A DNA stretch of 31,873 bases from a virus. A program made the position numbers and the translations under genes. Location of the stretch: the IMG/VR virus record IMGVR_UViG_3300027375_000008, positions 1 to 31,873 of that record; one strand, written 5' to 3'. This document shows positions 2,179-25,067 of this stretch, one piece after another; within the stretch, counting starts at the first letter, position 1, and each line of letters opens with the position of its first letter. A model generated the notes under the pieces. It was not told the DNA's origin, made no database searches, and saw nothing but the letters and a program-made list of their open reading frames with translations.

Positions 2179-2762
2179 GCCTTACCCTCCAAGACCAGCT
2201 GCCTGTAGTTGGAAGGCTTCGTGATGTCGGCGTACCCGCGCTCAATGAAGGCGTTGGGATAGAACCTCCGAATCAAGTTCTCCTGCATGGGGCCAACAGT
2301 CGGCCCCTTCCAAGCGGCAGCAACGGTGCAGGGCTCTCTGTGCTTCCATTGCTGGAACGCAACCAGAGGAAATCCAAGCTGTCGAGAATACTGTGACCCA
2401 GTGCTCCCATGAGCCTGGCCGTCCAGCAAGGTTTCAGACAACCTTCCCCAAGTAGGTGAAGATTCAAATGGGCCTGTCCGTGGAGAGTACGTTCCCTCGA
2501 TCCGCATCTTGATGACTTCAACGCCAGGGTGCTCGTGAGCCTGCAAGTTTGGATTCGGGTGAATCAAATACAGCTCAACTTGAAATCTCCCTCTCCTGAA
2601 AACGCACATCGAGGTTGCATCATCAGACAGGAAAATCTCCGCTCCATCTGGCGGGAGAAACGGCATGCCAACGCCGCACCACCAATGAGCAAATTCCCGA
2701 ACGTCATCCCAGGTTTCCGGGATGCTGGTCAGATCAATTATTGGCTTGGCGTACTCAAACAT
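2175..2762 (-). CDS. Uncharacterised phage protein with His-rich segment
   Basis: The 195-residue product was not recognised. The ATG at 2762 (MFEYAKPIIDL) was chosen; a TTG four codons upstream is also open. It overlaps the preceding gene by 8 bp. The segment NPNLQAHEHPGVEVIKMRI in the first half holds HEH, reminiscent of a cupin or jelly-roll metal site, and the next gene encodes a cupin-like protein, so the two may be related or act together. The C-terminal half contains FIERGYADITKPSNYRQL. No signal peptide or membrane helix is seen. Confidence 0.6.
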   Translation of the reverse strand: MFEYAKPIIDLTSIPETWDDVREFAHWWCGVGMPFLPPDGAEIFLSDDATSMCVFRRGRFQVELYLIHPNPNLQAHEHPGVEVIKMRIEGTYSPRTGPFESSPTWGRLSETLLDGQAHGSTGSQYSRQLGFPLVAFQQWKHREPCTVAAAWKGPTVGPMQENLIRRFYPNAFIERGYADITKPSNYRQLVLEGKA

Positions 2763-3117
2763 CTTTGGGGTCAAAACGAACAGGGTTGATCAAAGGCATG
2801 TGCCAAGCCTCAAACAGCAGGTTCTGTTCGGCTTGCTGCATTGCTTGTTCGTGGACTGCAACCAGACCATCGACCCAAGGCTGACCGCCTTCATGAGCTG
2901 CAACCCAATCCAAAACCTGTTGAGCCTCTAGCTCAGCAATGTTGATGAATGTCGATGGGTTCGGGGCAGCCAGGTCAGTTTGACCCCGCGCAAACACCTT
3001 GGCGCCGTTGCGCTTGAGCACGCACACCCAATGCACTCGAGCAATCGAATTGGGCGTGCCCTCGTACTGACGCACGTAAAGGCGCTCAATGTAAAACTTG
3101 TGCTCGATTCCATTCAT
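2755..3117 (-). CDS. Uncharacterised 120-aa phage protein
   Basis: The start at 3117 (MNGIEHKFYIERLY) was preferred over the longer open frame because its ATG overlaps the stop of the fibre-like gene upstream in an ATGA, the normal junction in this operon. The product looks like a mixed alpha/beta soluble protein (VHWVCVLKRNGAKVFARGQT, then a helical part near ELEAQQVLDWVAAHEGG). It has no recognised domain. It lies between fibre genes and the cupin-like genes, so an accessory virion role is possible but not shown. Confidence 0.65.
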   Translation of the reverse strand: MNGIEHKFYIERLYVRQYEGTPNSIARVHWVCVLKRNGAKVFARGQTDLAAPNPSTFINIAELEAQQVLDWVAAHEGGQPWVDGLVAVHEQAMQQAEQNLLFEAWHMPLINPVRFDPKDV

Positions 3118-3530
3118 GGTTTTTCTGCTCCGTAGAAGTTGCGCATTGAAATGGGGCCGCTGGTGGGTATGACTCCGTTGGCTGAAACCAGGGTTGTCAA
3201 AACGCGATACACGTAGTTCCACACATAACCTGAGCCGCCGTATCCACTATCGTTAGCAGCAACATCACCCTTGAAATACGTGTAACCGCCCGTTGTGTAT
3301 GAGGTCATAGTCGGTGACCAGCCGGACGATTGAGGAACAATGTTCGCCCCGCCCCAGTACAACTCAAAATAGCCGCTGTCTGTAGACAGCCAATGAGTTG
3401 AGTTCTGGGAGTAACTTCGAATGTAAGAGCTGTTGCGGTAATAGTCCCCAAGCGACGGGCTGGCTACCCCACCAAACAGGGTTTTTATGTTGTTAAGTGA
3501 GATCGCGCCGGATGACTGAAGAGCTGGCAC
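3114..3530 (-). CDS. Tail-fibre-associated small virion protein
   Basis: The 138-residue protein is rich in G, S, Y and N, as fibre tips often are. Its N-terminus has GAISLNNIKTLFGG followed by SLGDYYR, and its C-terminus ends in GPISMRNFYGAEKP. The two ends look like versions of one short motif (G-x-I-S-hydrophobic-x-N..F-G/YGA) that I associate with small phage structural proteins. It starts directly after the stop of the S74-type fibre gene, so it is probably expressed with it and may form part of the receptor-binding tip. No enzymatic motif is seen. Confidence 0.6.
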   Translation of the reverse strand: MPALQSSGAISLNNIKTLFGGVASPSLGDYYRNSSYIRSYSQNSTHWLSTDSGYFELYWGGANIVPQSSGWSPTMTSYTTGGYTYFKGDVAANDSGYGGSGYVWNYVYRVLTTLVSANGVIPTSGPISMRNFYGAEKP

Positions 3531-4511
3531 TTATTTCTCCAGCAACTTCTCAATCAGCAGCTCAAGACGCTCGATGCGCGCACGAAGCTCAAGATTGTTT
3601 TTGGCCAGCTCGATTGCAGAAACCAGGGCCGCATTACCGTAAGCCAGCGACAGGGTTTTGTCGGAATCAGATCCAGTCATGACGACTTCAGGAAGAAGCT
3701 TCTGCCAGTCCTGGGCTGACGCGCCTGCCTGGCGCTCGTTGGTGTCGACGCGAATGTAGATGCCGCTCTTGACGGCGGCTAGGCGCTCGACAAAATCAGC
3801 GGGCAGCGCGGCCCAATCTTTCTTCAGGCGTTCATCCGAGTACGCGGTGACGTTGCCTTGGGCAATAAAGTTTCCGTTCGCCCCATCAAACTGCCAAAGG
3901 GCCAAGGACGCCCCAGCGCTGTTGATGTGGTGAATGCAGAAGTTGCCCGGATTCGCGGCACTGGTAGTTAAATGCCCGAGGCTGTACTGACCTGCGTATC
4001 CGCCTGTGTACTCGTAGTACATCGAGAACCCCGGCCCGTACGAACTTCCCGTATGGTTTACCGTTGCTCTGAATGGCGCGTAGCGGCCCCACATCGCGGA
4101 AAAACCACCTCCTGTGGTTGCCGCATTAAAAGCTGCGGTGGTGGTGCTGCCGCTGGTGACCCCGTTTAATGTGCCGGTCAGCGTGCCGCCAGTCAGCGCA
4201 AGTCGCTCGGCCTTCAGGTCATTAAGCATCGCCCTCGTGATCCGAATCTCAACGATGTCGTTTACGGAGAATGCGCGACCCGTGGTGCCGTCTTGCCCAC
4301 GAACGACGGTGAATGTGTCGGTGGCTCGAGCGGTGACCCGCACGACCTCGAGGTTGCCAGCCGAGTCCATTAGCGTGGCGTAGAACACGTCGCCGCCAGA
4401 GATGGCCGGGAACAATGCGCCAGTGCCCGAGGTCACCGAAAAGCTGGTGGCGGTGTTCGTGATCGAGGCGGAGAGCCTCGAGGCTGCATTGTTTGCGTAC
4501 AAGACTGGCAT
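3531..4511 (-). CDS. Tail fibre with C-terminal S74 self-cleaving chaperone domain
   Basis: The 326-residue protein begins with a beta-rich virion-attachment-type domain (residues 1-100, containing VVRGQDGTTGRAF). A glycine- and threonine-rich shaft follows. The C-terminal intramolecular chaperone domain starts at about residue 224: AYSDERLKKDW, with Ser225, Asp226 and Lys230/231. In peptidase S74 proteins the serine-lysine pair cleaves the chaperone off after the fibre trimer has folded. The last 30 residues (SAIELAKNNLELRARIERLE) form a predicted trimeric coiled coil typical of the family. The gene overlaps the repeat-protein gene upstream by 1 bp. It probably forms the distal, host-recognising fibre. 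Confidence 0.85.
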   Translation of the reverse strand: MPVLYANNAASRLSASITNTATSFSVTSGTGALFPAISGGDVFYATLMDSAGNLEVVRVTARATDTFTVVRGQDGTTGRAFSVNDIVEIRITRAMLNDLKAERLALTGGTLTGTLNGVTSGSTTTAAFNAATTGGGFSAMWGRYAPFRATVNHTGSSYGPGFSMYYEYTGGYAGQYSLGHLTTSAANPGNFCIHHINSAGASLALWQFDGANGNFIAQGNVTAYSDERLKKDWAALPADFVERLAAVKSGIYIRVDTNERQAGASAQDWQKLLPEVVMTGSDSDKTLSLAYGNAALVSAIELAKNNLELRARIERLELLIEKLLEK

Positions 4512-6313
4512 TACGCTACCCGTTTCATCTCAATCGTTTCCAGCTCAGCAACAACGCTGATCTGGCCGCTGGCCTCGGAGGACAGCGAGAAGTCGCCCAC
4601 AGCTTCGGCGCTCAGGCCAATGAGTCCGGCGATAGGAGCCGCCAAGAGCTGCTGCACTTCGGCCTGCACGTCGATCCGTTCAGCGACTGCGGAAGCAGAC
4701 AGGCCTTGGACAAAAGCAACTGCCGTCACACCGTTGTAGATGTAGAGGCGGCGCAGATTCCCCTGCGTGACCACCGTAGCCAGCGAGTAGCCGTCGGCGT
4801 TCTTGGTGATGTGAAGCGTCGTGCTACTGAGAGCAAACGACCCCGACATCCCGGACATGCTGACCGTGACGGCAAGCTGCCCAACAAGGGTCGAGACCTT
4901 ATCCCCCGCGCCAGAAATGTTCTTGGACACCGCTACAGCAGCGGCCGGAATAGACACTGAGCAGATGACAGACGCCGCAATCTGCTTTTGAATTCCGAGC
5001 AGCGCAGATGTGGTTGCGCCGGTTGAGCCAACGAAGGCAACACTCTTGGTTACCGAGGCCACGCCAGAGGTCTGCGCTGTCGCCAACGCAGCAATCGACA
5101 TTGACTTGATAACTCTGGCGGCGGATGCGGTGGAGGCGACTGCTTGGGCTGTAATGCCCAGAGACTTAGTAATGCTTGCTGGCGCAGAGGCAACGGTCAT
5201 CGTTGCGGAGCCAGCAAAGCTCATGTTCTTCGAGACAGCAGCCTGCACGACTGGAGTCACAGTCGCAGAGCCGCCAGCGGCAATCGACTTCTCGATGTCA
5301 GCCGCGCTGGATGTTGAGGCGACTGCGTCGGCGTTAACCGCCATCAGCTTGGTGACGGCAGCGGAAGACGATGTCGAGGCGACTGCGTTCCCGGCAAAGG
5401 CGATGTTCTTGACGATCAGAGCCGAACCCGCTGTTTGCGCAACAGCGTTCACGCCAAGTGCAGCAAGCGGGTTAATCAGGCTCGCCAGACCGGAGGTCGA
5501 TGCGGTGGCGCTCGCGGCAGCGGCAGACACCTTGGAGACATTCGAGCTAGCAGTGGTTGTGGCTGTTGTGCTGCCGACAAATGCAAGCACCTTCGACAGA
5601 CCGGCGGAGCCGACAGTGACACCGCTCGTCGAGGCTGATCCAGACTGCCTACTGGTCTTGCTGAGCGCGACGGAAGGCGTTGCTACGACAGAGGCTGCGG
5701 CGGCAACAACATAGTTGACTCTGAAGACTCCAGACGCTATCGCGACGACAGACGCTCCGGCGGACTGCGTGCTGGTCTTCGAGACTGCACCCGACACCGC
5801 TGCGGAAACGGAGGCCGAACCGGATTGGCGGGAGGTCTTGCTGACTGCCGCAGAAGCTGCCGCTGCCACGGACATGGACGCAGCAAGATTCGCGGTTTTG
5901 CCGACCGCGCCAGACACGCTCGCCGACGCAGAGATGGCGGCAGACTGCCAGGAGGTCTTTGCGGCCGCGCCAGCCACAGAAGCTGTGACAGTCGGGGCAG
6001 ATCCCAGCTTGAAGCCCAGAGACACGTTCGCGGCAACGGTTGCTGCGACTGTTTGGCTCGAAGCGATCTTGTAGCCAACAATGAAGTTGGCCACGGTGCC
6101 GACAGAAGCGTTCCCGGCGACGGCAAGTCTCTTGGTGAGAGATGCCGATGCGACCGGGCTTGCAGCGCCTGTGATTACTCCCGCAGCGCGGGCTGTCTTC
6201 GAGATGGCGGCAGAAGTCGCTGCGGTGGCGGTGATTGCCCCTGCGAGCTGCTGAAGCGTCCCAGACCGCCCGTTCAGGACGAGCTGGTTAAGCTGTGACG
6301 CATTCAGCAACAT
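4511..6313 (-). CDS. 600-aa Ala/Ser/Val repeat protein, probable fibre shaft
   Basis: After a short N-terminus (MLLNASQLNQLVLNGRSG) the protein is built of about 21 degenerate units of 20-22 residues, roughly residues 25-462. Each unit starts near a lysine (SKTSRQSGSAS, VKNIAFAGNAV, TKSVAFVGSTG) and alternates small and hydrophobic residues, which suggests a regular beta-solenoid or collagen-free fibrous shaft. Residues about 463-600 form a distinct non-repeat C-terminal domain (LRRLYIYNGVTAVAFVQGL). Composition is extreme: mostly A, S, V and T, with very few aromatic or acidic residues in the repeats. Position between adaptor-type genes and the S74 fibre suggests a virion fibre. Repeat number may vary between relatives by unequal recombination. 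Confidence 0.7.
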   Translation of the reverse strand: MLLNASQLNQLVLNGRSGTLQQLAGAITATAATSAAISKTARAAGVITGAASPVASASLTKRLAVAGNASVGTVANFIVGYKIASSQTVAATVAANVSLGFKLGSAPTVTASVAGAAAKTSWQSAAISASASVSGAVGKTANLAASMSVAAAASAAVSKTSRQSGSASVSAAVSGAVSKTSTQSAGASVVAIASGVFRVNYVVAAAASVVATPSVALSKTSRQSGSASTSGVTVGSAGLSKVLAFVGSTTATTTASSNVSKVSAAAASATASTSGLASLINPLAALGVNAVAQTAGSALIVKNIAFAGNAVASTSSSAAVTKLMAVNADAVASTSSAADIEKSIAAGGSATVTPVVQAAVSKNMSFAGSATMTVASAPASITKSLGITAQAVASTASAARVIKSMSIAALATAQTSGVASVTKSVAFVGSTGATTSALLGIQKQIAASVICSVSIPAAAVAVSKNISGAGDKVSTLVGQLAVTVSMSGMSGSFALSSTTLHITKNADGYSLATVVTQGNLRRLYIYNGVTAVAFVQGLSASAVAERIDVQAEVQQLLAAPIAGLIGLSAEAVGDFSLSSEASGQISVVAELETIEMKRVA

Positions 6314-6328
6314 CGCAGACCCAAGCGA

Positions 6329-6763
6329 TTAAGCGAAGGTGATCGACAGGGACGCAGCGGGGAACGTCACCGTGTCAGCCTGGTTGATCGTCTTGGAGAT
6401 GGTGAGCGCACCCCAGAACAGCAGGTTGCCTGCGCTCGCGGCGTCGTAGATGCCAAAGTGAGTCACCGCGCCCCAGTTAGCGGAGGGCGTAGGGAACGTG
6501 ATGGCAGCGTTGTTGCTGGTCTGACCACCGGAACCGGTCGAGGCAACGGTGCTACCGGCCGACTGAGTGCCAGCCCAGTTGGCCAGCGACGATGTCACGG
6601 CCACACGGGCGTAAGAGCCACCAGTGACCTCGGTGCCACCACCGGAATCAGAGGGCGCTGCGGTCAACAGACCGACGTGCAGGGTGGTGGTCGTGGGCGC
6701 GGCCTGGCCACGGAAGAGCTGGTCGATGATCTTGTTTTCGAGAAAGTCGGACATTGCGGACAT
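6329..6763 (-). CDS. Phage tail/decoration protein of the small 'tail fibre protein' family
   Basis: The 144-residue protein has the pattern I recognise from many phages: an N-terminal helix (SDFLENKIIDQLFRGQ), then TTLHVGLLTAAPSDSGGGTE, GGSYARVAV, a Gly/Ser/Thr-rich middle and NNAAITFPTPSANWG followed by VTHFGIYDAASAGNLLFWG. Such proteins are usually labelled tail fibre or minor structural proteins and are likely beta-sandwiches. The gene lies in the connector-fibre block, between the immunoglobulin-like protein and the repeat fibre. The exact place in the virion is not known from sequence. Confidence 0.7.
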   Translation of the reverse strand: MSAMSDFLENKIIDQLFRGQAAPTTTTLHVGLLTAAPSDSGGGTEVTGGSYARVAVTSSLANWAGTQSAGSTVASTGSGGQTSNNAAITFPTPSANWGAVTHFGIYDAASAGNLLFWGALTISKTINQADTVTFPAASLSITFA

Positions 6764-6773
6764 GGTTTACTCC

Positions 6774-7106
6774 TTATGCAAACTGGGAACGGACGTTGAA
6801 CTTGAGGACCTCATAGACGGTCTGAAGCTGACCATCGAAATCCACCTCGACTTCGCCCTCGTAGGGGCCTGGCTCAACGTCGAGTACGCCTGGGCCGAAG
6901 TTGAATCGGACCTGACCGCCAGTGCCACCGCTCACCTTTTCACAGGTGATCGTTGACAGGACTGTGCTGCTGCCCGATGCGCGAAAGCGCACGCGAACAA
7001 CAATCTCTGAATCAGACAAGTTGATCGCCGCGCCGGTCGACGGGTCGGTCAATGTCAGCTTGATGTACGGCAGGTTGTCGCCCTGCACGAGATTGATTTT
7101 GGCCAT
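6774..7106 (-). CDS. Small beta-sandwich virion protein (BppU N-terminal-like)
   Basis: The start at 7106 (MAKINLVQGDNLP) was chosen because the ATG overlaps the stop of the previous gene in TGATG; the longer open frame upstream is a shadow of that gene. The 110-residue product is almost all beta: IKLTLTDPSTGAAINLSDSE, VRVRFRASG, GQVRFNFGPG and PGPYEGEVEVDFDGQLQTVY. This resembles the N-terminal domain of baseplate upper proteins (BppU type), which attach fibres to the tail. Assignment is by pattern only. It probably links fibres to the tail or decorates the head. Confidence 0.6.
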   Translation of the reverse strand: MAKINLVQGDNLPYIKLTLTDPSTGAAINLSDSEIVVRVRFRASGSSTVLSTITCEKVSGGTGGQVRFNFGPGVLDVEPGPYEGEVEVDFDGQLQTVYEVLKFNVRSQFA

Positions 7107-7756
7107 CAGATCTTCCTCATCTTCACGCTCAGGCTCGAGCGCACATGGCCACGAGAGGCTCGCTGCCTGGCGACGTTGATCGCCTGGTCGAAAAAGCCCT
7201 TGTTGATCACAGCCATATCTGGGTTCGTGTACGCCTTGCCAACGCTCACCTGAAGGCGATACGCAGCGCCCTGACCAATAGCCTCGGCGTAGTCCTCGAA
7301 GACCTCGTCCTCGATAGTGGTCGAGGCCCTGGTGGGCTTGAGCGCAATGCGCATCGTCAGACCATTGCGGTACTGTCGATCTGGCAGGGGCCACACAGAG
7401 ATCGTGCGAGCGTCCTTCTGGAGGTACGCCGTGGGCGTGCTGCCGCGAGCCTGGTATGAACTGAAGAGCCGGTTGTAGACGGCGGGGTCGTTCACGAAGT
7501 CAGGAGCCAGCGGGGTGATCTCGCGGTTGTCGAGCCACGCCTTCTGCACCTTGACGACCAGGTAACCAGTCGGTGGCTCGAGGTCGTAGTCGACGATGTT
7601 CTGACTGATCGTCACCGGATCGTGATCGCGGGTGAGGATTAAGCTCTTCTCGCAGAACTCGATGCAGGTATTGCGAATCGCCTGGACGACCAGCGGCTCA
7701 GGAGCGCCGATCACCTCTGGCATGACGTACGGGAAGAAGTCTTCATAGGACGCCAT
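7106..7756 (-). CDS. Connector/tail-nozzle-type protein
   Basis: The 216-residue protein starts MASYEDFFPYVMPEVIGAP and contains IRNTCIEFCEKSLILTRDHD, VDYDLEPPTGYLVVKVQKAW and WPLPDRQYRNGLTMRIALKP. I recognise this as a common phage head-tail connector or tail protein type without a fixed name. It begins 1 bp inside the previous adaptor gene (stop and start share a base), so the two are co-translated and probably assemble as successive rings below the portal. No catalytic motif is present. Confidence 0.65.
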   Translation of the reverse strand: MASYEDFFPYVMPEVIGAPEPLVVQAIRNTCIEFCEKSLILTRDHDPVTISQNIVDYDLEPPTGYLVVKVQKAWLDNREITPLAPDFVNDPAVYNRLFSSYQARGSTPTAYLQKDARTISVWPLPDRQYRNGLTMRIALKPTRASTTIEDEVFEDYAEAIGQGAAYRLQVSVGKAYTNPDMAVINKGFFDQAINVARQRASRGHVRSSLSVKMRKI

Positions 7757-8445
7757 CAGACGCCTCCAATCTGCTGGGCCGGTGCGCTAGGCTGGTCGCC
7801 AGGCCGGTTCATCGCCGGAGCGAACGCGTTGTCCGCCATGGTCTTGTCGCCGAGCATTCCGTTGAAGAGCGCCAGGTAACTGGCTGCGAGCTCTGCGTTG
7901 CCTGCGAACTCCGTGTCTCGAGCGTAGGACTTGTAGAGCACGAACACGACCAGGTGCTCCATGTACTCATCACGCAGGCCGATCGTGTCGCTGGTCTGGG
8001 ACACGTTGCCAATGACGGCAGAGACCTTTGCCTGGATCCTTGCGCCAGTGTTGGCGGGCGGGTAGACCTCGAATCGCCGTGCGGTTCTTGGATCGAAGAT
8101 GTAGTGCTTGATCGTGGATGACTTGGCTCCAGCTCGCCAGTTGGGGCTGAAGGCATCGAGGACGGTGTTGTCCACCAGGGTGACAGCACGGCCCTGGGCG
8201 TCGTCCACGCCGAGGTTGCAGACGATGTCGATCAGGCGGTAGGCGGAGTCAGGAATCGTTTGGAGCGCGCCAGCCACCAAGGTCAAGGGGGATAGGATGG
8301 TGTTGGCGTCAGGCCGCTTGATCAGGACCATGCGGCAGGCATCGTTGATGTAGCTGATCAGGTCAGAGTTCGACCAGCGATATGCGGCTGCATCACTGTC
8401 GTTGAGTACCGGTCGTACGCGGCCAAGGATGTCGGAGACGATCAT
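7756..8445 (-). CDS. Head-tail adaptor protein (DUF6682-like)
   Basis: The 229-residue protein has the adaptor pattern: an N-terminal helical part with ILGRVRPVLNDSDAAAYRW and DLISYINDACRMVLIKRPDA, then LIDIVCNLGVDDAQG and a C-terminal part with HLVVFVLYKSYARDTEF, where long-chain helices pack in a ring. This matches the phage adaptor family called DUF6682, which bridges portal and tail. The C-terminal 30 residues are disordered (PGDQPSAPAQQIGG). It overlaps the small gene upstream by 4 bp (ATGA) and the nozzle-type gene downstream by 1 bp. Confidence 0.75.
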   Translation of the reverse strand: MIVSDILGRVRPVLNDSDAAAYRWSNSDLISYINDACRMVLIKRPDANTILSPLTLVAGALQTIPDSAYRLIDIVCNLGVDDAQGRAVTLVDNTVLDAFSPNWRAGAKSSTIKHYIFDPRTARRFEVYPPANTGARIQAKVSAVIGNVSQTSDTIGLRDEYMEHLVVFVLYKSYARDTEFAGNAELAASYLALFNGMLGDKTMADNAFAPAMNRPGDQPSAPAQQIGGV

Positions 8446-8696
8446 GGAGCACCTGATGTTCGTGAGCTGGGCTTACGTCCCAGCTTGGTGACCTGTCTGC
8501 GAAACACTGCCTTGGCGACCTCGAGGTCTGTTTCCGGCTCATCCGCGCTGGTGTTGACAGGATTCTCACTGGTGTTTTCTAGCTCGGAAGCCTGGACTGG
8601 GGTGGGGTCGTAGACCTCCATGTCGTCACGGGAGGCCAGGTTTTCCGTCCACACGTAGATGTGGCCGGTTGTCTTTTGCTTGAGAAGTTTTTTCAT
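8442..8696 (-). CDS. Small uncharacterised protein downstream of the capsid terminator
   Basis: The 84-residue product begins MKKLLKQKTTGHIYVWTENL, a segment common in small phage proteins next to capsid or adaptor genes, followed by an acidic, Pro/Thr-rich middle (PVQASELENTSENPVNTSAD) and a basic C-terminus. It is the first gene after the terminator that follows the capsid gene, so its expression and that of the connectors depends on read-through. A head-completion or decoration role is possible. Confidence 0.6.
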   Translation of the reverse strand: MKKLLKQKTTGHIYVWTENLASRDDMEVYDPTPVQASELENTSENPVNTSADEPETDLEVAKAVFRRQVTKLGRKPSSRTSGAP

Positions 8697-8702
8697 GGCG
8701 CC

Positions 8703-8739
8703 AAAAAATAAAAAAGGGGAGGGGAGTTACCCCCTCCCC
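8703..8739 (-). terminator. Rho-independent terminator after the capsid gene
   Basis: Read on the minus strand there is a perfect 9-bp stem GGGGAGGGG/CCCCTCCCC with a 6-nt loop (8716-8724, 8725-8730, 8731-8739), followed by a run of T broken by one A (8715-8703). It lies 18 bp after the capsid stop codon. It should cut most transcripts after the capsid gene and so raise capsid mRNA relative to connectors and fibres. Confidence 0.9.
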
Positions 8740-8757
8740 CTCACGGGTTAACGTGGA

Positions 8758-9741
8758 TTACTTGGACACGTAGCCGTGGACCAAGGCTTCAGGCTTGGTC
8801 ACCTTGTAGCCGTACACGTTCAGGCCGCGCATGATGTTGCCGAACGTGGACTGCGAGCGCAGGGTTTCCACGTTGGTGATCTGCGAAGCGAACGAGATGG
8901 CATCGCGGGTACCGGCCATGATGTTCCAGGCCGACTTGTCAGCAGCGCCGCCAGTGCCGCCAGAAGCACCATCGCTACCCAGGTCGGTGACCTTGGACAG
9001 GTTGTTGCTGATGTAGACGGTGAAGCGGTCGATCATGCCGATCTTGCCGTTACGCAGAGGCGTGACGGAGTCACCGGTCAGGTAGGCTTGCTTCAGATCA
9101 GAGTTCTTGATCATCGAAGCCATCCAGGCGGGGATCACCATCCAGCGACCGTCTTCAGGCGTGTTCTGCTCGTCCAGGACCTGGCCCATGTCCAGGATCA
9201 TGTCCAGGATGTTGGCCTTGGTCAGGGCGCGAGGAGCGCCAGCGGCACCCAAGTTGATGTCGCCAGAGATCGCGCCAGCGGTGGCGCCCTTGTTGGCGGC
9301 AGCGGCGTCTGCGTACACAGAGCCCAGAACGTCGCCGTCGATGGCGATCTTCATCTGCTGACTTGCGTCGTTGGTGAAGATGTCCATCAGCTTGATGTCG
9401 GCCTGGACTTCGTCCACGTCGTCCAGGACGACCTGGAAGTACTTGCCCTTGTCGATGCTCAGCTCCAGAGGAGTGCTGTTAGGAACCTGGGAAGTCAGGT
9501 TCATACCCTTCTGGTAGTTGCTGATGTTGATCGTTGGGATGGTGCGGATGAAGACCTTGTCGCCTTGGCCCTTGATTTCGCCTTCCCAATCGTTGTTGGT
9601 GATTTCGCCCAGGACGGTGCTCTTGTAGAACTTGACCTGGAGCTTGCCGGACCAGACTTCGGGGATGAAGCCATTGGCACCAGCGTATGCGTCAGTGCCG
9701 CTACCGGCGCCGTAGTAGTTACCGTTTACTGCGAGAGACAT
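8758..9741 (-). CDS. Major capsid protein (HK97 fold, BPP-1-like)
   Basis: The 327-residue product forms the icosahedral head. It begins MSLAVNGNYYGAGSGTDAY and contains FIPEVWSGKLQVKFYKSTVL, GDKVFIRTIPTINISNY, DVDEVQADIKLMDIFTND and a central peripheral-domain-like region (RWMVIPAWMASMIKNSDLKQ). This pattern belongs to coat proteins of podoviruses related to BPP-1. A strong AAGGTGA ribosome site lies 5 nt before the ATG. The gene directly follows the scaffold gene and is followed by a strong terminator, as expected for the most abundant virion protein. A Gly/Ala/Ser loop (GAAGAP, SGGTGGAADK) may carry surface insertions. Confidence 0.85.
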   Translation of the reverse strand: MSLAVNGNYYGAGSGTDAYAGANGFIPEVWSGKLQVKFYKSTVLGEITNNDWEGEIKGQGDKVFIRTIPTINISNYQKGMNLTSQVPNSTPLELSIDKGKYFQVVLDDVDEVQADIKLMDIFTNDASQQMKIAIDGDVLGSVYADAAAANKGATAGAISGDINLGAAGAPRALTKANILDMILDMGQVLDEQNTPEDGRWMVIPAWMASMIKNSDLKQAYLTGDSVTPLRNGKIGMIDRFTVYISNNLSKVTDLGSDGASGGTGGAADKSAWNIMAGTRDAISFASQITNVETLRSQSTFGNIMRGLNVYGYKVTKPEALVHGYVSK

Positions 9742-15129: not shown

Positions 15130-15215
15130 TGGCGGAGCCTGAAGGAATCGAACCCTCACCTGTCGCCAAGTGGCCGGGGGTTCAAACCCCGTTTGTGCCC
15201 TGCACGCCAGGCTCC
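15130..15215 (-). tRNA. tRNA-Ser (anticodon TGA)
   Basis: The 86-nt gene folds as a class II tRNA: acceptor GGAGCCT/AGGCTCC, anticodon stem CGGGG/CCCCG with loop TTTGAAC (anticodon TGA, reading UCA), variable arm ACTTG-GCGA-CAGGT, T arm GAGGG/CCTTC, discriminator G and encoded CCA. Long variable arm and G discriminator are both serine features. The D region is short, 17 nt between acceptor and anticodon stems, with a GTGC/GCAC stem around only three bases or a 3-bp stem with a 5-base loop. Confidence 0.85.
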
Positions 15216-15220
15216 GCGTC

Positions 15221-15296
15221 TGGTGCCCCTGGTAGGAATTGAACCCACGACCTTCCGCTTACAAGGCGGCTGCTCTGCCAACTGAGCTACAAGGGC
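15221..15296 (-). tRNA. tRNA-Thr (anticodon TGT)
   Basis: A 76-nt canonical tRNA: acceptor GCCCTTG/CAGGGGC (one G-T pair), D arm TAGCTCAGTTGGCAGAGC, anticodon loop CTTGTAA with TGT reading ACA, T loop TTCAATT, discriminator A and encoded CCA. It lies 5 bp from the serine tRNA. Confidence 0.95.
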
Positions 15297-15297
15297 T

Positions 15298-15371
15298 TGG
15301 CACCCCGCGAGGGACTCGAACCCCCATCTTCGGTTTTGGAGACCGACGTCCTGCCATTGGACGAGCGAGAT
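15298..15371 (-). tRNA. tRNA-Trp (anticodon CCA)
   Basis: A 74-nt tRNA: acceptor ATCTCGC/GCGGGGT (two T-G pairs), D stem GTCC/GGAC, anticodon stem TCGGT/ACCGA with loop CTCCAAA (anticodon CCA, reading UGG), T arm GGGGG/CCCTC with loop TTCGAGT, discriminator G and encoded CCA. One base separates it from the threonine tRNA, so the transcript must be cut precisely. Confidence 0.95.
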
Positions 15372-15376
15372 ACGTC

Positions 15377-15451
15377 TGGCTCCGAGGGCTGGGATCGAAC
15401 CAGCGACCAATTGGTTAACAGCCAACTGCACTACCGCTGTGCTACCTCGGA
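15377..15451 (-). tRNA. tRNA-Asn (anticodon GTT)
   Basis: A 75-nt tRNA: acceptor TCCGAGG/CCTCGGA, D stem GCAC/GTGC, anticodon stem GTTGG/CCAAT with loop CTGTTAA (anticodon GTT, reading AAC/AAU), T arm GCTGG/CCAGC with loop TTCGATC, discriminator G and encoded CCA. Confidence 0.95.
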
Positions 15452-15471
15452 AAATCGTCGGGGGTTGATGG

Positions 15472-15558
15472 TGGTGGGGGTGGAAGGATTTGAACCTTCT
15501 CGACTCTTGGTCAACGGGTTTACAGTCCGCCGCGCCTCACCATCTGCGCCGCACCCCC
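15472..15558 (-). tRNA. tRNA-Tyr (anticodon GTA)
   Basis: An 87-nt class II tRNA: acceptor GGGGGTG/CACCCCC, D stem GCGC/GCGC, anticodon loop CTGTAAA (anticodon GTA, reading UAC/UAU), variable arm TTGAC/GTCGA, T arm GAAGG/CCTTC with loop TTCAAAT, discriminator A and encoded CCA. One A-C mismatch closes the anticodon stem next to the loop. Confidence 0.92.
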
Positions 15559-15571
15559 AGGCAGGGGGTTC

Positions 15572-15593
15572 AATACGACGAGGGTGTCGTATT
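15572..15593 (-). other. 8-bp perfect hairpin between tRNA-Pro and tRNA-Tyr
   Basis: AATACGAC and GTCGTATT form a perfect 8-bp stem around a 6-nt loop (15580-15585). It lies in the widest spacer of the tRNA cluster (52 bp). There is no T run on either strand, so it is not an ordinary terminator; an RNA-processing or pausing element is possible. Confidence 0.5.
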
Positions 15594-15610
15594 ACGCCAA
15601 GAGTTTGAAT

Positions 15611-15688
15611 TGGTCTGGGTGGCAGGATTTGAACCTGCGGCCTCCGCCTTCCAAGGGCGGCCGTCTACCGGGCTGACATTACACCCAG
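15611..15688 (-). tRNA. tRNA-Pro (anticodon TGG)
   Basis: A 78-nt tRNA: acceptor CTGGGTG/CACCCAG, anticodon stem CCGCC/GGCGG with loop CTTGGAA (anticodon TGG, reading CCA), T arm GCAGG/CCTGC with loop TTCAAAT, discriminator A and encoded CCA. It is the first tRNA of the leftward transcript. Confidence 0.95.
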
Positions 15689-21560: not shown

Positions 21561-21601
21561 CCTCTTGCTGTTTGTATGTAGAACTGTTTGCACATTTCGT
21601 G

Positions 21602-21626
21602 ACCCGCCAATCGGCGGGTTTTTTAT
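21602..21626 (+). terminator. Rho-independent terminator
   Basis: ACCCGCC/GGCGGGT (21602-21608, 21613-21619) with an AATC loop and six T. It separates the small-gene operon from the amidoligase gene. Confidence 0.92.
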
Positions 21627-21646: not shown

Positions 21647-22984
21647 ATGAAGAACTATCCATACCTTGAACGCCTGGCCACACAAACCTACACGGCCAAG
21701 TCAAAGTTCGCACATCAAGTTGCCAAGCGAGCACTCGAAGGAGGTGACGTCGACCAGCTCTTCGACATCTGCAAGTTCGTCGGCATCAAGTCCATTGTTC
21801 TCACCATCATGGGGGAGGAAGAGGGCTGCATGATGCTGCACCTCAAGCTCTGGCTTGATCGCTACTCCGCCTGGGAAGTCGGCGACTTCAGCGACTGGAT
21901 CAGCCGGTACGACAGCGCCGACGACTCAGACGATTGCATCGACCTCCTGAAAGACAGGGACATCATCACCCGCTGCGATGACTGCGGTGAGTGGGAGCTG
22001 GTGCGTGAGGTGCGGTCCTACTACAACAACGAGGACGCGCAGATCTGCCGCAGCTGCATCGACGACAGCTACCGCTGGTCCGATTACTACGACATGTACG
22101 TCTACTCGGACAGCTCACGCGACGCGCTCGACCAATACGGCAACCGCTGCGTGATCCACGAGGACGACGACGACTTCCAGTTCGACGACGACGACGACGA
22201 GTACCACCACGTCGACTACAGCCCGTCAGCTCGTGTCATCGGCAACTACCACAGCAGCAAGGGATCGCAGCGTCCGCAGATCAGCGACTGGACCAAGATG
22301 AAGAAGCGCTACCTCGGCGTCGAGCTCGAGGTGGAGGTGCGGGATAACGAGCGTGGCGAGAAGGCTCTGGCGCTACACAAGCTGATCAACGACGAGCAGT
22401 TCGGAGCCAAGGTGTTCTTCGAGAACGACGGCTCTCTGAGCAACGGCTTCGAGATCATCAGCCAGCCGATGGGCCTGGACAAGCACCGTGATCTTTGGGC
22501 CTGGCTCAAGGACAAGAACGCCGTCCGCAGCCTGCGCTCGCACAACACCACGACATGCGGACTGCACGTTCACGTCAGCAAGGATGGGTTGTCCAAGTTG
22601 CAGATCGCCAAGATCGTGTCGTTCATCAACGACCCGGACAACGAGGACCTGGTCCGCGCTGTCGCACGTCGGTACGCCGAGGGCTATTGCCGCATCAAGA
22701 GCAAGAAGATCGGCCGATCAGCACAGTCCGATGACCGGTACGAGGCAGTGAACATCACGCCGCGCAAGACCATCGAGTTCCGCATCTTCAAGGGCAGCCT
22801 CAAGTACGAATCGGTCATGGCTGCGATCCAGTTCTCGAACGCTCTCGTCGAGTTCTGCGGTCGCTCAACCACGTCGATCCGCGAACTCAAGGCCGACAAG
22901 TTTCTCGAGTTCATCCGCTCCGACGAGTCCGGCGACACCGACATGCTCGTCCCGTATCTCGAGAACCGTCTCGAAACCGCCTGA
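21647..22984 (+). CDS. Amidoligase_2-type enzyme with zinc knuckle and acidic linker
   Basis: The 445-residue protein starts at 21647 after AAGG. Residues 1-100 are helical; residues 110-137 hold C-x2-C (CDDC) and C-x2-C (CRSC), a zinc ribbon; residues 172-185 are nearly all aspartate. From residue 222 comes a domain with the marks of putative amidoligases of the glutamine-synthetase-like fold: YLGVELEVEV (Glu-x-Glu), FFENDGSLSNGFEIISQP, TTTCGLHVHVS, and NITPRKTIEFRIFKGSL. Such enzymes use ATP to join a carboxyl group to an amine through metal-bound Glu and His residues. The gene for a class II glutamine amidotransferase follows after 28 bp, which could supply ammonia or process the product. 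Substrate is unknown. Confidence 0.8.
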   Translation: MKNYPYLERLATQTYTAKSKFAHQVAKRALEGGDVDQLFDICKFVGIKSIVLTIMGEEEGCMMLHLKLWLDRYSAWEVGDFSDWISRYDSADDSDDCIDLLKDRDIITRCDDCGEWELVREVRSYYNNEDAQICRSCIDDSYRWSDYYDMYVYSDSSRDALDQYGNRCVIHEDDDDFQFDDDDDEYHHVDYSPSARVIGNYHSSKGSQRPQISDWTKMKKRYLGVELEVEVRDNERGEKALALHKLINDEQFGAKVFFENDGSLSNGFEIISQPMGLDKHRDLWAWLKDKNAVRSLRSHNTTTCGLHVHVSKDGLSKLQIAKIVSFINDPDNEDLVRAVARRYAEGYCRIKSKKIGRSAQSDDRYEAVNITPRKTIEFRIFKGSLKYESVMAAIQFSNALVEFCGRSTTSIRELKADKFLEFIRSDESGDTDMLVPYLENRLETA

Positions 22985-23012
22985 TCAAACATTCAACCAA
23001 GGAAATATCAAC

Positions 23013-24002
23013 ATGTGTCTTCTCGTACAACAAACCACCCAATCCACATTCAGCGATGAGTTTCTCGCCGACGTCTACAACAAGAACCAGGACGGCCTGG
23101 GCGTCATGTATGCCGACGGCGACAAGATGCACATCTTCAAGTGCCTGCCCGCCAACGCGCAGGAGTTCGTCGACTTCTACCGCAAGCACGCCGAAGGCAA
23201 GAACTGCGTGTGGCACGCACGCATGCAGACGCACGGCGACATCGACTTCGACAACTGCCATCCCTACAAGGTGACGGACGACGTCTGGCTGGCGCACAAC
23301 GGCATCCTGTCCACCGGCAACGCCGCAGACAAAGCCAAGTCCGACACCTGGCACTTCATCCAGAACTTCATCCGTCCGGCGCTCATCGGCAACCCCGAGC
23401 TGCTGACCGACGTCGACTGGCAGAAGTTCGTGGGCGAGCTCATCGGCCGCAGCAACAAGTTCGCACTGGTGCGTGCAGACGGAGCCGTCGTGGTGATCAA
23501 CGCGCAAGCTGGCGTCAACTACCAGAACGCCTGGCTGTCCAACACCTACGCCTGGTCGTACCACAAGTTCACCGGCACGCAAGGCGGCGGCTACACCAAC
23601 ATGTACTCAGGCTACGGCGGATACCGCAGCCGCTTCCAGGACGACGACTACGAGGACTACTACAGCACCTGGCGCACCGGCACGACCGAGGCCAAGGGTT
23701 CGTACATCCCGGATAGCAAGGACACCAAGTCCTCGCACAGGGGCCTGCCGAAGCAGACGTTCACCGCATCACAGATCAGCCCGTACGTTCGCGCAGCACA
23801 CAACCAATGGTCGCGTCGCGGCGTAGAGGGTGTCGAGCAGTGGGTGTTCGACGCACCGCACAAGGCGGCAGCTCTGCTGTCGTACTGGTACGACGACGTC
23901 GATGACGTCGAGGACCTGGTCGAGGACTTCCCCGAGACCGCAGCCGAGTGGATCGCCGACTTGTTCGCTTCCGACTCCATCGCCCCCAGCCTCATCAACT
24001 AA
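23013..24002 (+). CDS. Class II glutamine amidotransferase-like (Ntn hydrolase) protein
   Basis: The 329-residue protein begins Met-Cys (MCLLVQQTTQ), so removal of Met exposes the N-terminal cysteine nucleophile of class II amidotransferases. Other marks follow in order: NQDGLGVMYADG (25-36), WHARMQTHGDIDFDNCHPY (67-85), WLAHNGILS (92-100) and SDTWHF (110-115). Known members release ammonia from glutamine; relatives act as peptidases. Residues about 175-329 form an unrecognised extension, first Gly/Tyr/Asp-rich and disordered (GGGYTNMYSGYGGYRSRFQD), then helical and acidic. AAGGAAATATCAAC gives the ribosome site. It is probably transcribed with the amidoligase gene. Confidence 0.8.
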   Translation: MCLLVQQTTQSTFSDEFLADVYNKNQDGLGVMYADGDKMHIFKCLPANAQEFVDFYRKHAEGKNCVWHARMQTHGDIDFDNCHPYKVTDDVWLAHNGILSTGNAADKAKSDTWHFIQNFIRPALIGNPELLTDVDWQKFVGELIGRSNKFALVRADGAVVVINAQAGVNYQNAWLSNTYAWSYHKFTGTQGGGYTNMYSGYGGYRSRFQDDDYEDYYSTWRTGTTEAKGSYIPDSKDTKSSHRGLPKQTFTASQISPYVRAAHNQWSRRGVEGVEQWVFDAPHKAAALLSYWYDDVDDVEDLVEDFPETAAEWIADLFASDSIAPSLIN

Positions 24003-24442: not shown

Positions 24443-24627
24443 AAGTTCGGCGGTTGATCAAGGGACTCGGGCTCAGGCTCGAGTCCACCGATCAATCAGG
24501 CGGACACATCAAGTGCGTCATCCGAAAGGACGACGTGATTCACAAAGTCATCTTCCCGGTGTCGCCGAGCGACCAGAGGTGGAAGAAAAACATGATGTCG
24601 TATCTCAGAAAGACTTTTCAGTTATGA
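24424..24627 (+). CDS. HicA-like small protein (dsRBD-type fold)
   Basis: The start is a GTG at 24424 preceded by AGGAAAGGAAAGGA; a TTG at 24454 is an alternative. The 67-residue product runs helix (VRRLIKGLGLRLESTDQSGG), then HIKCVIRKDDVIHKVIFPVS, then helix (DQRWKKNMMSYLRKTFQL). This alpha-beta-beta-beta-alpha order with a glycine-histidine before the first strand matches HicA/YcfA-type toxins, which cut mRNA through that histidine. No HicB antitoxin is adjacent. The similarity is short, so a harmless RNA-binding role is also possible. Confidence 0.5.
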   Translation: MDRHQLEVRRLIKGLGLRLESTDQSGGHIKCVIRKDDVIHKVIFPVSPSDQRWKKNMMSYLRKTFQL

Positions 24628-25034
24628 GCTCCACAGAACCAACCAAGCCAAGAAAACGCAAGTCCTCGCCGCGCCGCAAGGTATCGCCGCAAGAACGCAT
24701 GACCATCATCCAGCTCTGGACGTCAGGCCAGGGCAAGGTGCAAGAGATCGCCGATGCAATGCGTCGTCCAACCTCGACCATCTACAACGTGCTCATGAGC
24801 GCCGGTCTCTGGCCTGGGTACGATGACTACGCTAAGGCTGGCACGACTCCAGACCGGAACAAGGACACGCCCGGTCTGGCCAGAAAGCAGCCCAAGCCAG
24901 TGATCAAGATCGTCAAGGACAAGCCGCCGAAGATAGTGATGCCCGAGCCGACCCCGGTCGAGGCCGGAACCATCACCATGATTCGTGGTCCGAAGCGCAG
25001 CCTGTGGCAGCGCATCAAGGACTTCTTCCAGTAA
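24624..25034 (+). CDS. Helix-turn-helix protein with amphipathic C-terminal helix
   Basis: The 136-residue protein starts in an ATGA overlap. A basic arm (TKPRKRKSSPRRKVSPQERM) precedes a helix-turn-helix: MTIIQLWTSGQGKVQEIADA, then MRRPTSTIYNVLMSAGLWPG, similar to resolvase or IS630-type domains. A Pro/Lys-rich linker of about 60 residues follows, ending in RSLWQRIKDFFQ, an amphipathic helix that could bind a membrane or a protein partner. It is a likely DNA-binding regulator and the last gene before a terminator. Confidence 0.65.
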   Translation: MSSTEPTKPRKRKSSPRRKVSPQERMTIIQLWTSGQGKVQEIADAMRRPTSTIYNVLMSAGLWPGYDDYAKAGTTPDRNKDTPGLARKQPKPVIKIVKDKPPKIVMPEPTPVEAGTITMIRGPKRSLWQRIKDFFQ

Positions 25035-25039
25035 AGAGT

Positions 25040-25067
25040 GGGGGCTATGCCCCCATTTCTTTTTTTT
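25040..25067 (+). terminator. Rho-independent terminator of the rightward block
   Basis: GGGGGC/GCCCCC (25040-25045, 25049-25054) with a TAT loop, followed by TTTCTTTTTTTT. It is 5 bp after the stop codon. Confidence 0.93.

Follow-up and report, generated by a model that had tools for sequence, protein, structure and literature searches.

Amidoligase genes next to genes for class II glutamine amidotransferases (GATases) have been described in several phages, the adjacency being noted for Marvin, MEP401/402, phiEco32 and LUZ24-like phages (PMC10580990, PMC3890496). The pair in MEP401/402 and in more than 30 metagenomic genomes was listed among auxiliary metabolic genes (PMC10580990); that paper also relays earlier proposals that the pair modifies the cell wall in phiEco32 (citing Iyer 2009) and takes part in secondary metabolite synthesis in Marvin. 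The amidoligase and GATase of a Planctomycetes phage were treated as nitrogen metabolism genes, with no enzymology on them in the part of the paper that deals with them (PMC10945688). No report giving a substrate for any amidoligase-GATase pair was found in the literature searched. EgtA and EgtC of ergothioneine synthesis are a ligase of the glutamine synthetase superfamily and a class II GATase-fold protein acting in one pathway, in which EgtC cleaves a gamma-glutamyl amide by hydrolysis; around the pair described here no gene for ergothioneine synthesis was seen. GatD is a class I GATase. Together with MurT, described as a Mur-ligase-type protein, it performs two-subunit, glutamine-dependent carboxylate amidation in Staphylococcus aureus (PMC3267633), which makes MurT-GatD a functional parallel with no homology to the present pair.

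The pair lies in a 31,873-bp stretch of viral DNA (IMG/VR record IMGVR_UViG_3300027375_000008), the whole of which is called the window here. A 55,831-bp IMG/VR contig (G001) contains the entire window at 99.997% identity, and the window has no near DNA matches among phage records. Among the products of the window are a terminase, a head-tail adaptor/portal protein, a major head protein, a primase-helicase and an Erf-like annealing protein, while G001 additionally carries genes for a tyrosine integrase and a GH19-like lysis enzyme. The phage origin assumed in the earlier note is supported, and the source is a podovirus-like phage that is probably temperate. A 2,914-residue ORF of G001 with an LPD38 domain (L152, 4524-13268) probably specifies a polyvalent internal protein of very large size. 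Six tRNA genes (Ser, Thr, Trp, Asn, Tyr and Pro) are clustered on the minus strand of the window at 15130-15688.

The two ORFs were found where the earlier note had placed them, 28 bp apart, in a plus-strand unit away from the minus-strand structural genes (Table 1). An alternative in-frame GTG upstream of the ligase ATG would give a protein of 484 residues, but near relatives begin at the ATG used. The pair had been described as isolated from upstream genes by a terminator, and a terminator-like hairpin is present there. Left out of that description were the small plus-strand ORFs that continue beyond the pair to a second, two-way hairpin. The ligase and GATase genes thus head a longer operon reaching approximately position 25034 and do not form a closed two-gene unit. 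In 11 other loci an ORF like the 87-residue one directly follows the GATase gene of the pair, the homology of the window copy being judged by eye.

Table 1. Features of the amidoligase-GATase locus, in window coordinates.
Feature	Position	Strand	Remarks
Terminator-like hairpin 5′ of the pair	21601-21620	+	8 pairs, 6 of them GC, then T-rich tail
Amidoligase_2 ORF, 445 aa	21647-22984	+	ATG start
Ligase N-terminal helical domain	21647-21961	+	Lowest conservation in the ligase; mean pairwise identity 0.29
Ligase putative zinc ribbon, C110-x2-C113 ... C134-x2-C137	21974-22057	+	Invariant in near relatives
Two Cys-poor beta-hairpin units including Asp-rich stretch	22061-22219	+	Model strand pattern
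Asp-rich stretch	~22157-22204	+	
Ligase catalytic core, glutamine-synthetase-like	22310-22861	+	Invariant residues
GATase ORF, 329 aa	23013-24002	+	Begins Met-Cys
Ntn-hydrolase glutaminase domain of GATase	23013-23567	+	Conservation, Foldseek
Tyr/Gly-rich GATase linker	23568-23759	+	pLDDT mostly <50; variable in alignment
Acidic helical C-terminal domain of GATase	23760-23999	+	Model, alignment
Small ORF 3′ of the pair, 64 aa	24016-24210	+	No family; shares operon with the pair
Small ORF 3′ of the pair, 87 aa	24179-24442	+	No Pfam family
Small ORF	~24451-24624	+	HicA-type likeness by eye, without Pfam support
ORF, 136 aa, weak helix-turn-helix similarity	24624-25034	+	HTH_38, 24.5 bits, under cut-off of 27
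Two-way terminator-like hairpin, operon end	25036-25058	either	

IMG/VR scans, run with the single proteins and with alignments, gave more than 100 loci. A ligase gene is situated directly upstream and on the same strand in 59 of 60 GATase clusters (90% identity), within 50 bp in 55 of these, and the functional pairing proposed in the earlier note is thereby supported. In the remaining cluster, from a Bifidobacterium phage, a diverged amidoligase-like protein with a ribbon is encoded two genes upstream (profile E 3e-4; motifs by eye). Counted by locus, the pair was seen in 79 of 80 GATase-seeded viral loci, the other (L103) beginning within the GATase gene; nowhere were the two genes seen fused. 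The two-gene module also occurs in Marvin, MEP401/402, MW202733 and Acinetobacter phage vB_AciJM_313, and spans phages of Mycobacterium, Bifidobacterium and Betaproteobacteria. Because motifs and adjacency are conserved in dozens of distinct contigs, chance can be excluded. Ligase and GATase distances correlate (r 0.88; 0 of 2000 permutations), a value to which shared phage ancestry contributes.

Among 369 sampled bacterial genomes the GATase profile mostly finds GlmS-like proteins, judged by open-frame length (about 610 residues), and only two closer relatives, one stand-alone and the other accompanied by a ligase in a probable Azoarcus prophage. The plasmids searched gave a single weak GATase match. 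In the Azoarcus sp. MAG contig (L151, about 2593-9094) the pair is approximately 2 kb from an integrase gene and probably marks a prophage edge, so that some of the group may plausibly infect betaproteobacteria. There, genes resembling queA and murI by eye come after the pair. A lone GATase relative on a bacterial chromosome (L185, 9421-10323; E about 1e-40) is next to a gene that resembles one for an ABC-transporter binding protein, with no amidoligase within approximately 9 kb.

The most economical reading of the pair, and the one we favour, is a two-subunit, glutamine-dependent amide ligase acting early in infection on, most likely, a host carboxylate; we consider it reasonably likely. In its favour are the family assignments and fold matches of both proteins, the invariance of the catalytic motifs expected of them, the strict pairing of the genes and the parallel divergence of the proteins. 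Against it stand the inflation of the distance correlation by common ancestry, the stand-alone bacterial GATase, and the amidoligases of Clostridioides and Microcoleus phages, which have no GATase nearby. The latter indicate that the ligase fold does not require a GATase. The ribbon described below is missing from the ligases of both of these unpaired lineages, which are too few for a general claim.

The assignment of the first protein to Amidoligase_2 was borne out by a match to PF12224 of 38.3 bits (cut-off 22; E 1.7e-9), and all 48 core ligase relatives match this family at E <= 0.01. The motifs quoted previously are present as GVELEVE, ENDGS, CGLHVHV and TIEFRIF. Nineteen positions are invariant over 48 diverse ligases, in which the motifs GxExE, DGS, GFE, SH...CGxHxH, R and TxExRxF do not vary; the invariant core residues are E226, E228, D261, S263, E269, H299, H307, H309, R342, R364, E377 and R379. 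The Glu, His and Arg motifs predicted to form the metal/ATP site (ExE, DGS, E, HxH and ExR) are intact. The structure prediction proposed in the earlier note gave a model with a pLDDT of 84, for which a Foldseek search of the PDB placed glutamine synthetase, YbdK, Dop and PafA on top (best E 4.8e-6). This agrees with a glutamine-synthetase-like fold, the TM-scores of approximately 0.3 bearing on fold class only. A PDB sequence search with ligase profiles returned nothing but RRN9 and NAIP, which were rejected as chance matches covering an acidic or single-motif stretch only.

Ahead of the core lies a putative zinc ribbon. All of 10 near relatives share the CxxC-~20-CxxC arrangement unchanged. 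Of 59 paired ligases, 58 have one or more CxxC ahead of the core, and the remaining sequence is truncated; the ribbon had been called an uncommon addition, which is wrong, since virtually every paired ligase has one. Distant relatives (L065, L067-L069 and L001) carry several CxxC ribbons in tandem at the same site. In the window ligase the units following the first ribbon show a hairpin-like strand pattern in the model, with Tyr, Ser and Asp replacing the Cys of the distant relatives. These Cys-poor units, including the Asp-rich stretch, are probably degenerate ribbon repeats. The Asp-rich stretch reported previously does exist, then, but to regard it as an uncommon addition is misleading. One 22.7-kb contig (IMGVR_UViG_3300032167_007622) carries two amidoligase-GATase pairs several kb apart (L067 and L068), and each of their ligases has three tandem CxxC ribbons. 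In LUZ24 and phiEco32 the ligase is without CxxC, but the motif is present in the GATase C-terminus, from which it appears that the CxxC motif follows the pair, where it may serve in docking or target binding. C-terminal CxxC motifs were recorded in the GATases at L157 4412-5311 (Marvin gp106), in gp19 of L155 and in gene 83 of L158; the window GATase has no match to them.

The second protein matches GATase_4 (PF13230) at 25.6 bits (cut-off 23; E 7e-6), a family that all 51 relatives match too, and the motifs MC, NQDGLG, HARMQTHG, NCHPY and HNG are present, in agreement with the earlier assignment to the class II GATases with an N-terminal Cys. Over 51 GATases 15 positions are invariant (M1, C2, DGxG, HxRxxTxG, HP, HNG and D111), including C2, D27, G28, G30, H68, R70, T73, G75, H83, P84, H95, N96, G97 and D111. 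The structural model is weak (mean pLDDT only 61), which counts against the two-subunit reading, and the Tyr/Gly-rich linker is probably disordered, as judged from the model. Foldseek nevertheless ranked GlmS glutaminase domains best (E 1.5e-4). The presence of EgtC chains further down the same list, and of YbdK, a relative of glutamate-cysteine ligase, in the ligase list, is compatible with a different pathway, in which the ligase would place a gamma-glutamyl or related group on a small amine or metabolite, for later removal by the GATase acting as an EgtC-like amidohydrolase. The folds suit both steps of such a metabolic route, which would not be an amidation machine. However, EgtC ranks below GlmS, and the profile of the 51 GATases matches GlmS (E 7.7e-9) and also finds PurF, not EgtC. 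Moreover, no further metabolic-pathway gene adjoins the pair in the window, and the ribbon array speaks for a partner or target of large size, so we consider this pathway unlikely.

Comparison with the described systems places the window pair within a known type of system, as a new, well-supported lineage with a shorter gene set. In LUZ24 (gp18-gp19) and phiEco32 (genes 84-83) the amidoligase likewise adjoins a class II GATase near replication genes, but those clusters add a RimK-type ATP-grasp enzyme and a GGCT/UPF0131 protein, unlike the window; phage UFV-P2 also has an ATP-grasp enzyme and a PF06094 protein. A search of 22 related records, among them the 55.8-kb contig, gave no match to RimK (PF08443) or GGCT (PF06094); this set may contain incomplete records and had no LUZ24-type positive control. 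Because no such partners were found, the window module is taken to be a short form of the kind seen in Marvin. There, and in Marvin-like phages of M. smegmatis mc2 155, the amidoligase (gp105) is likewise followed by the class II GATase (gp106) in the same order and on the same strand, with a gap of 79 bp against 28 bp, CxxC ribbons ahead of the ligase core, and no RimK or GGCT gene annotated alongside. The Marvin proteins are nevertheless distant from those of the window, with profile-level similarity only and Pfam scores just under the cut-offs, and gp106 has extra C-terminal CxxC motifs that the window GATase lacks. In the Methylophilales (OM43) phages MEP401 and MEP402 (gp05-06 and gp06-07) the ligase adjoins the GATase and contains a ribbon, as in the window, and the ligase cores share approximately 29% identity; unlike in the window, there is a long unrelated N-terminal part and the genes overlap slightly.

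The targets listed in the earlier note (a host protein, the virion, a metabolite or peptidoglycan) are conjectures. A specific form of the two-subunit reading has a peptidoglycan precursor as the substrate, the D-Glu or diaminopimelate carboxylate of the stem peptide being amidated to alter lysis or block superinfection. UDP-linked peptidoglycan precursors are cytosolic, and an export signal would be unnecessary. The phage has its own GH19-like lysis enzyme, and the cell-wall role suggested for phiEco32 is of the same kind (PMC10580990, citing Iyer 2009). However, neither in the window nor in G001 does a cell-wall gene accompany the pair, and the hosts of phages with the module differ greatly in their walls (Mycobacterium, Bifidobacterium and Betaproteobacteria). 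We rate this form as rather improbable, and the data separate it only weakly from the gamma-glutamyl pathway considered above. The phage itself might also be the object of modification, with the pair supplying an amidated base or virion protein. Phage glutamine amidotransferases serve 7-deazaguanine DNA modification, but the main window genes and the larger G001 ORFs included nothing recognisable as a base-modification gene (the small ORFs being partly scanned), and the pair is on a plus-strand unit while the structural genes are on the minus strand; self-modification is thus very unlikely.

Returning to the favoured two-subunit ligase, the N-terminal Cys of the GATase would split glutamine to give ammonia, which would pass to the ligase within a physical complex. 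The ligase, with ATP and metal, would convert a carboxylate to its activated acyl phosphate, to which the ammonia, or less likely another amine, would then be joined. The ribbon-hairpin array ahead of the ligase core would most likely hold the partner or a macromolecular target, and the target would most likely be a host carboxylate on a peptidoglycan precursor, protein or peptide, modified early in infection. One could go further and regard the pair as a minimal, self-contained tagging machine driven by glutamine. Its ribbon array, carried by the ligase in most phages but by the GATase in LUZ24 and phiEco32, would bring the two enzymes together or hold a host macromolecule in place, and amidation of a carboxylate of that macromolecule would reprogramme the host. 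This is a doubtful extension, to which we give little credence; if true, it would add a protein modification so far undescribed in phages.

In the lineage represented by the window the pair is retained although its usual companions, RimK and GGCT, were not found. Amidoligase-GATase pairs occur in phages of many hosts, and the similar two-gene module of Marvin-like phages of the laboratory strain M. smegmatis mc2 155 makes their function experimentally tractable.
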